From Bacteroidia bacterium (GTDB lineage Bacteria > Bacteroidota > Bacteroidia > J057): a DNA stretch of 42,630 bases. Location: positions 1-42,630 of the forward strand of contig JAUIGE010000049.1 in assembly GCA_030430205.1 (NCBI GenBank), written 5' to 3'. Positions 12,673-21,730 of the stretch are shown piece by piece. Each line of letters starts with the position of its first letter. Within the stretch, counting starts at the first letter, position 1. The notes below the pieces were generated by a model. It was not told where the DNA came from. It worked only from the letters and a program-made list of their open reading frames with translations, and did no database searches. Position numbers and translations under genes: made by a program.

Positions 12673-12710
12673 GCAACAAACTTAGCAAATTAGCAGAAGT
12701 AAAAAGAAAA

Positions 12711-13194
12711 AATGCGGCAGCCTTGTAAGCCGGATTCTGTACCTGCTGCAAGCAGCAGGTCTTCATCATTTATCTAGGCCCATCGTCACCGAGGGGCTCA
12801 AGCAACCTACCCACTGGCATCGGACGGGTCGCCCTCAAACGCCAGCCTATTTGGTCTTTCAGCTCCTGAGGTTTACCTGGCTGCCGACATCACTGCCAGC
12901 ACCGGTGGGCTCTTACCCCACCCTTTCACCCTTACCTCCTTCCACCTGATGCAGTAGGCAGTAAATAGTCGACACTCGGCAGACAATTCAAGACTTTGAT
13001 TTCAAAAGGCTCAAAGTCTGCATACTGCTAACTACTTCCTGCATACTGCACAGGCGGACGATCGGCGGTCTACTCTCTGCTGCACTTGCTGTCCCGCCCG
13101 GAGGCGGTCCTTCCCGTTAGGAAGCAGGATACCCTACGCTGTCCGGACTTTCCTTCTGCCTTTACAGACAGACGATGAAGCCAGCTGCCGCATT
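12711..13194 (-). ncRNA. rnpB: RNase P RNA, bacterial type A, with extended P12
   Basis: The minus strand carries the universal RNase P RNA blocks: GAAAGTCCGGAC near the 5' end, AGAGAGTAGACCGCC, GGGTAAGAGCCCACCGG, and the 3' block ACAGAATCCGGCTTACA. The 5' end (AATGCGGCAGC) and the 3' end (GCTGCCGCATT) pair as helix P1, which sets the limits within a few bases. At about 484 nt it is long for type A. The excess sits in P12 (about 12945-13054), whose arms are made of inverted heptamer repeats. The RNA is the catalytic component of tRNA 5' maturation. Confidence 0.95.
12945..13054 (-). repeat. Heptamer-repeat arms forming the enlarged P12 of rnpB
   Basis: On the plus strand, 13015-13049 reads as five 7-mers: AGTCTGC ATACTGC TAACTAC TTCCTGC ATACTGC (dashes omitted). 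The opposite arm at 12951-12964 is GCAGTAG GCAGTAA. The arms pair (CCTG with CAGG, GCAGTA with TACTGC, GCAG with CTGC), and the tip carries a separate ACTTTGA/TCAAAGT stem. The arrangement shows a heptamer array absorbed into a structural RNA helix. Confidence 0.75.
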
Positions 13195-19063: not shown

Positions 19064-19065
19064 TA

Positions 19066-19135
19066 CCCGAAACCCAAAACTCGAAACTCGAAACCCGAAA
19101 CTCGAAACCCAAAACTCAAAACCCGAAACCCAAAA
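19066..19135. repeat. Tandem heptamer array (CCCGAAA/CCCAAAA/CTCGAAA)
   Basis: Ten perfect-register 7-mers start 2 bp after the lipoprotein stop codon. The first six are CCCGAAA, CCCAAAA, CTCGAAA, CTCGAAA, CCCGAAA and CTCGAAA, and four similar units follow. Only the positions C/T2 and G/A4 vary. It fills almost the whole spacer to the next gene. Confidence 0.95.
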
Positions 19136-19149
19136 CCACTTTCCTTCTT

Positions 19150-21572: not shown

Positions 21573-21618
21573 TTAACATTTCCCTTACTTCGCGCATCTT
21601 TTACTGACAACAACCAAT

Positions 21619-21730
21619 AAACAGGGGTGCCCCCTAAAAAGGGCTGAGATCATACCCTTCGAACCTGATCCCGATAATGCGGGCGCAGGGAGTTTGATCC
21701 ACCGGATATGTATATCCTTTCCCCTGTTTA
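21619..21730 (+). ncRNA. TPP (THI-box) riboswitch
   Basis: The THI-box core is present: AGGGGTGCC (from 21623), GGGCTGAGATCATACCC (about 21641-21657), GAACCTGATC (21661-21670) and GATAATGCGGGCGCAGGGA (21673-21691). These bind thiamine pyrophosphate and repress when it is abundant. The outer arms AAACAGGGG (21619-21627) and CCCCTGTTT (21721-21729) are perfect complements and are followed by AGTTTTTTG, while a GGATATGTATATCC hairpin (21704-21717) sits between the core and the right arm. This outer stem could act as the terminator or as an extended P1. The controlled gene is the TonB receptor. Confidence 0.95.

Follow-up and report, generated by a model that had tools for sequence, protein, structure and literature searches.

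The heptamers of cyanobacterial rnpB, the gene for RNase P RNA, reportedly lie in helix P12, and the units of STRR1-3 (Mazel, 1990) are said to be CCCCART, TTGGTCA and CAACAGT. The heptamers of the locus described here, which read as GCAGTNN, are not STRR1-3 proper, and we claim no common descent with the cyanobacterial repeats. According to its title, as referenced in PMC2858038, a paper by Vioque (1997, NAR 25:3471) deals with such STRR heptamers in the rnpB genes of heterocyst-forming strains. What is shared is that rnpB contains heptamer arrays belonging to a dispersed family. However, the present cases come from other phyla, are built of other units, involve P3 and P9 as well, and include two nearly identical genes that differ by a single unit. 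Filamentous cyanobacteria also carry hairpin-forming intergenic STRR, tandem units usually of 7 bp located near gene ends, for which a part in the stability, coupling or termination of transcripts has been considered (PMC2670836). Our arrays resemble them in unit length, tandem layout, hairpin formation and position near gene ends, but those repeats are cyanobacterial and, in the sections of that text consulted, have no link to RNase P.

Other heptameric repeats include GGGAATC of Xanthomonas and GGGGA(T/C)T of Nostoc (PMC4692102), which are likewise dispersed G-rich 7-nt units, with an inverted pair in Xanthomonas, but RNase P is not mentioned in that text. Direct TAACTGA repeats occur in Beggiatoaceae, some Cyanobacteria and five Bacteroidetes (PMC4679880). 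They are similar in being intergenic 7-nt arrays that extend to Bacteroidota, and they differ in having one fixed unit in direct orientation, which in the genome mainly studied there usually precedes start codons, and RNase P is again absent from the text. A study of RNase P accretion (PMC12974513, 2026) reports that expansion in archaea and eukaryotes commonly takes place at P3 and at the tip of P12; growth at these same sites is the likeness, whereas those expansions are archaeal or eukaryotic and the word “repeat” is absent from that text. We found no report in the open-licence PMC literature of heptamers in rnpB of Bacteroidota, Planctomycetota or other non-cyanobacterial bacteria. Although heptamers in rnpB are already known from cyanobacteria, their breadth across phyla appears to be new.

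The window, that is, the whole stretch of 42,630 nucleotides of Bacteroidia DNA analysed here, carries an rnpB gene with the following parts.

12710-13191, minus strand: rnpB, class A RNase P RNA (cmscan, RF00010, 259.3 bits, full model 1-367)
12934-13066, minus strand: P12 helix, with 127 nt between the closing GCC and GGT
13015-13049, minus strand: 5' arm of the heptamer hairpin (sequence, fold, PWM score)
12985-13014, minus strand: distal hairpin and loop, non-heptameric (fold)
12951-12984, minus strand: 3' arm of complementary heptamers (PWM score of its first two units, pairing in the fold)

The match to RF00010 exceeds the gathering cut-off of 100 bits, and the core and helices of a class A RNA are complete. 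RNase P RNA is needed by most bacteria, and this match is the only one in the whole 7.24-Mb genome from which the window comes (G000), so the gene should be the working copy if the species needs RNase P RNA. The gene measures 482 nt, its extra length being located in P12 as a large insertion relative to RF00010. Por-tail and SprB domains are encoded near rnpB in the window, in keeping with an origin in Bacteroidota, and a TPP riboswitch lies at 21613-21708 on the plus strand.

The 5' arm (13049-13015 on the RNA strand) consists of the units GCAGTAT, GCAGGAA, GTAGTTA, GCAGTAT and GCAGACT, and those of the 3' arm (12984-12951), taken on the other strand beginning at 12951, are GCAGTAG, GCAGTAA and three degenerate units; exact GCAGT is kept in two of the five units of each arm. 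The predicted fold of P12 has a free energy of -62.2 kcal/mol and 52 pairs and is closed by GCC/GGT (z = -8.4 against 100 shuffles; z = -6.75 for a wider piece against 200 shuffles). In the third unit pair, a U13034-A12966 pair stands where the unit consensus has C-G, so that pairing is kept, this being one case in one sequence. The 7-bp units that the original prediction had named in P12, and the pairing it proposed between the two arms, are both found in this hairpin.

The self-match of P12 at lag 7 is 55/124, compared to 30.8±4.8 for dinucleotide shuffles, none of 5000 of which scored as high. The two arm regions taken separately each give P<=0.0002 at lag 7, and P<=0.002 when any lag from 3 to 14 is allowed. 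P12 therefore shows the 7-bp periodicity that had been anticipated in an autocorrelation and, like an STRR-type repeat, contains tandem 7-bp units within rnpB, with diverged copies. TRF, run on the window at a score of 30, did not report the P12 arrays, and P12 falls under the threshold when 58 rnpBs are scanned for periodic segments with a stricter method. Because TRF misses these arrays at that score, we relied on autocorrelation and on a PWM. The PWM drew on 23 other arrays of the same genome, comprising 116 units, with 2000 mononucleotide shuffles of P12 as the control. Over four units, the 5' arm scored 22.0 bits and the 3' arm a poor -0.6 bits (best shuffle, -9.0). Over two units, the 5' arm reached 11.2 bits, which is under the best shuffle of 16.6, and the first two units of the 3' arm reached 20.1 bits, which is above it. 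Six places in a 400-kb sample of the genome attain the four-unit score of the 5' arm, equal to the number of GCAGT arrays listed there by TRF. In the whole window, GCAGTNNGCAGT with at most one mismatch gave 7 matches (2.0 expected), 4 of them in P12 and 3 scattered.

The P12 units belong to a GCAGTNN family that is dispersed in the genome, another feature of STRR-type repeats: GCAGTNNGCAGTNNGCAGT has 192+124 = 316 overlapping matches in G000, compared to 0+3 for the reversed control. Among the 13 genomes of the family, it is present only in G000 (316) and G003 (7), with no match in the same-genus genome G009. BLAST of P12 against its own genome (E<=10) gave 55 matches besides itself; 50 of these align to the query's heptamer arms, with a best E of 3.9e-4, and the remaining five are short, weak matches to the loop part (E 0.06-4.8). 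We read 29 loci, several of which represent the same place, and found heptamer arrays in all except L036 and L050. For the 23 distinct GCAGT arrays in the fetched loci, an opposite-sense arm was present within 70 nt downstream in 12, upstream in none, and on neither side in 11. The order in P12 (GCAGT arm, loop, ACTGC arm) thus matches every two-armed copy seen.

Seven is the dominant tandem period in both G000 and G009. In 400 kb of G000 there are 38 lag-7 arrays, and no other lag between 4 and 12 yields more than 4; in 369 kb of G009 the corresponding numbers are 25 and no more than 9. The units are GTTTCGG, GAGAGTA and GCAGTNN in G000, and CATTAAC, GTTTAGG, ATTCAAA and others in G009. Twenty-two of the 38 arrays occupy spacers free of ORFs, and each of the other 16 has more than half of its length within ORFs, which weakens the idea that the arrays are intergenic, the ORF calls being crude. 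Of the overlapping arrays, 9 are at 5' ends, where starts were perhaps called too early, 2 are at 3' ends and 5 are mid-ORF. The original prediction had also placed the same period-7 design in spacers elsewhere in the window. The period was indeed found in the window, in the four arrays below, but not the units. Matching GCAGT arrays occur elsewhere in the genome.

19065-19137: period-7 array of ACCCGAA, in a spacer, unit different from that of P12
27844-27923: period-7 array of AGAGAGT, unit different from that of P12
29547-29631: period-7 inverted pair GTTTCGG ... AACCCGA, unit different from that of P12
33827-33877: period-7 array of ACCCGAA, unit different from that of P12

At four places in the same genome (G000:C14 139346-139497, 156906-156985, 158909-159051 and 187061-187166), the arms come from different heptamer families, a G-rich GTTTCGG arm being followed by a C-rich TCTCGCY- or TCTACTC-like arm with no complementarity.

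P12 is 25 nt or shorter in 8 of the 13 family genomes, G000 included in the count, and long in the remaining five: G000 (127 nt), G009 (46), G003 (87), G004 (114) and G005 (111). Beyond the family, P12 does not exceed about 35 nt in ten rnpBs belonging to 9 other genomes of the order. The check proposed with the original prediction thus comes out in its favour, and the long P12 is not ancestral. The rnpBs of G004 (L010) and G005 (L009) have A+T-rich insertions in P9, P12 and near P16-P17, with no period 7 in P9 or P12.

G009 is a sister species in the same genus. Its rnpB has the same four neighbours as that of G000 (proline dehydrogenase, a DUF6843 protein, a Por-tail protein and a thiolase, 58-78% identical), so the two genes are orthologous. 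The P12 of G009 is built of different, TTAATTA-like heptamers (familywise P 0.010); neither the length nor the sequence of P12 is therefore conserved between the orthologs, which bears out the expectation that the long P12 would not be shared across relatives. The P3 of G009 is a hairpin of about 98 nt with heptamers, although it is a less clean case because lag 4 slightly outscores lag 7 (z 4.6 vs 4.4), as A+T-rich units may. In this genome (G009:C29, about 91125-91010, minus strand), the covariance search begins rnpB about 100 nt late because P3 is a large heptamer hairpin.

To cover other bacteria, we scanned a collection of one genome per species (84,980 species, in which records of the window's genome may be absent) for an rnpB anchor followed within 30 nt by GCAGTNNGCAG. 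The four matches (L145-L148) are all in rnpB according to Rfam, which rules out chance matches. Two of them, L146 and L148, from a Gemmataceae MAG and a Phycisphaerales MAG, carry P12 heptamer hairpins; that of the Gemmataceae MAG is (GCAGTTG)3GCAGTTT ... (CAACTGC)4, with a predicted energy of about -77 kcal/mol. The other two, from Arthrobacter (L145) and Oligoflexales (L147), have an ordinary P12. As the two positives were chosen by carrying the unit, they are uninformative on the frequency of P12 invasion.

P12 is said in a paper of 2004 to vary in length in planctomycetes. To lessen the selection bias of the first scan, we searched 392 Planctomycetota and 395 Bacteroidia genomes for long P12s whatever their sequence (about 61-121 nt, exact anchors only). 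Nineteen of the 59 places listed for Planctomycetota, picked by eye, and one listed for Bacteroidia were fetched, and 16 of these 20 were in rnpB. Fourteen of the fetched Planctomycetota rnpBs have a long P12, which is heptameric in four, representing three independent cases: G586 (TAGGGAG), G542 (TAGGGRT) and the close pair G560/G436 (AAGTTRA). Across the Planctomycetota hairpins the units are GCAGTTG, GCAGTAG, TAGGGNN and AAGTTRA. For Bacteroidia, three long P12s in that length range were recognised by eye and coordinates; they show lag 7 in G393, lag 8 in G203 and no period in G004.

The statistics include 24 long P12s; two sequences were dropped, namely L196 (G746), which does not match RF00010, and L197 (G603), a genuine rnpB whose P12 measures 21 nt. 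Lag 7 is best in ten of them, from Bacteroidota and Planctomycetota, at a familywise P<=0.01 that applies per sequence and is uncorrected for 24 tests. None of 2000 shuffles reached the lag-7 value of G401, G402, G586, G542, G436, G000 or G560, and the remaining three are weaker (G393, 0.002; G003, 0.007; G009, 0.010). The independent case in Bacteroidota that the original prediction had envisaged thus has strong support in G000 and weaker support in G009, G003 and G393, and it extends to Planctomycetota. The P12 of G203 (L195) has period 8 (0/2000 shuffles), with units AACTCACT / AAATCACT. The other 13 show no period at P<=0.01, with nominal P<0.05 in two (G005, lag 4, 0.03; G359, lag 8, 0.04). 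These 13 aperiodic cases, together with G203, indicate that P12 grows by other routes too. The P12 of the G359 rnpB (L087) is a perfect 50-nt palindrome (z = -11.0) without a heptamer period. All 24 long P12s fold with their closing triplets paired, GCC and GGT having been added to each as standard ends, and the fold z is <=-3.0 for all ten lag-7 cases (100 shuffles each).

The stricter segment scan mentioned above, in which 58 of 63 rnpBs could be parsed from a sample partly picked for length, gave at lag 7 seven segments in six genes (G009 twice, G017, G401, G586, G542 and G436), at lag 8 two segments, and at lags 5, 6 and 9 none. The G017 segment lies upstream of or in P1-P3; this genome, with a stated contamination of 4, has two full RF00010 matches (L016 and L023). 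P9 carries heptamers in G003 (NNCAGTN) and G586 (TAGGGNN) by reading, with no statistic; a P9 pattern search returned four genomes and missed these two, and both of their P9s were read directly. P12 is therefore not the exclusive site. However, as the sample was picked for long P12, the helices involved (P12, P3 and P9, all peripheral) cannot be ranked, and a preference for P12, which the original prediction had allowed for, is left undecided by these sequences, with P3 of G009 and P9 of G003 and G586 also invaded.

The P12 unit is clearly dispersed in its own genome in G586 (80+86 matches; control, 0) and G542 (17+18; control, 0). It is abundant in G560 (197+220) and G436 (33+45), where the controls are also high (63+87 and 10+28, respectively), and dispersal is weak in G402 (3+13; control, 7+0). 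All four genome matches of the G401 GCAGTTG hairpin are inside rnpB; this confinement does not fit recruitment from a dispersed family and is a real exception. The rnpBs of G560 and G436 are nearly identical, and their P12s differ by a 7-nt gap, corresponding to one unit of the 3' arm, and three substitutions. Both fold with P12 closed despite the one-unit difference. This gap provides the clearest sign of what would be unit-wise gain or loss within the gene.

Most probably, the P12 of G000 is a diverged member of its own genome's GCAGTNN hairpin family, and 7-bp arrays are tolerated at the tips of peripheral helices. A replication-linked process would keep making and resizing 7-bp arrays across the genome: polymerase slippage at 7 nt may produce the arrays, and inverted copying may produce the second arm. 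Replication slippage favouring 7 nt is a hypothesis of Mrazek et al. 2007, as cited in PMC4679880 and PMC4692102. Selection on RNase P might then let arrays persist only as hairpins at the tips of P12, P3 and P9, because both arms pair there and the core stays undisturbed. Periodic arms would be elastic, as a whole unit could be gained on one arm with most of the pairing kept. The extension is most likely a tolerated passenger, possibly a stabilising one, rather than a new catalytic part. Against this reading, the 3' arm fits the PWM in its first two units only, P12 stays under the stricter scan threshold, five of the BLAST matches fall outside the arms, and 11 of the 23 GCAGT arrays have no recognised second arm.

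Hairpins of one unit family that are both dispersed in the genome and present in rnpB could also be expected if a mobile element of MITE- or REPIN-like type, with a fixed sequence, had transposed into P12. We regard this as improbable, as the loci read vary in unit number, unit order, loop and flanks, the flanks differing in all 29, with no shared non-repeat sequence or borders; the BLAST matches lie almost entirely in the heptamer arms, those in the loop part being few, short and weak; and neither the unrelated units in the similar arrays of G009 nor the one-unit difference between G560 and G436 accords with a fixed element. Alternatively, P12 could have been lengthened adaptively, so as to bind a protein or to regulate RNase P, with the repeats merely serving as building material. 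The closed folds of all 24 long P12s (with the standard ends added), the low z of the ten lag-7 cases and the compensatory U13034-A12966 pair are consistent with this idea, and since archaeal and eukaryotic expansions of P3 and of the P12 tip are described as adding sites for protein binding (PMC12974513), the extension may have a function as well. Nevertheless, the sequence, the length and even the helix used vary among species of one genus and family, and the extension is absent from 8 of the 13 family members, which makes adaptive expansion an unlikely account.

The least credible explanation, to which we give almost no weight, is that a long P12 is ancestral and its periodicity due to chance. 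P12 is at least 46 nt long in five of the 13 family genomes, and two of these, G004 and G005, have no period 7. However, none of the 5000 shuffles reached the lag-7 count, which contradicts chance periodicity, the 5' arm matches the dispersed family of the genome, and most family members have a short P12. The reading preferred here, a diverged family member tolerated at a helix tip, could be widened, tentatively and with somewhat more doubt than belief, to the proposal that the birth of heptamer arrays is a general route to expansion segments in a conserved ribozyme. Different 7-nt families would then have repeatedly colonised the tips of P12, P9 and P3 in at least two phyla besides cyanobacteria, growing unit-wise and being replaced between sister species, and the fixed period with free unit sequence might reflect one shared replication process that counts length.

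The origin of expansion segments of functional RNAs is mostly inferred from structures; here one can see both the material from which they are built and the step of a single unit. A 7-bp repeat process acting across the genome would appear to leave hairpins in an essential ribozyme in several phyla and with different units, including a close pair of genes one unit apart. As the unit sequence varies and the period hardly does, with one case of period 8, the question of why the unit is seven becomes testable. The lengthening of an outer arm of rnpB by a heptamer hairpin of a kind scattered through the genome may be one way in which functional RNAs grow.
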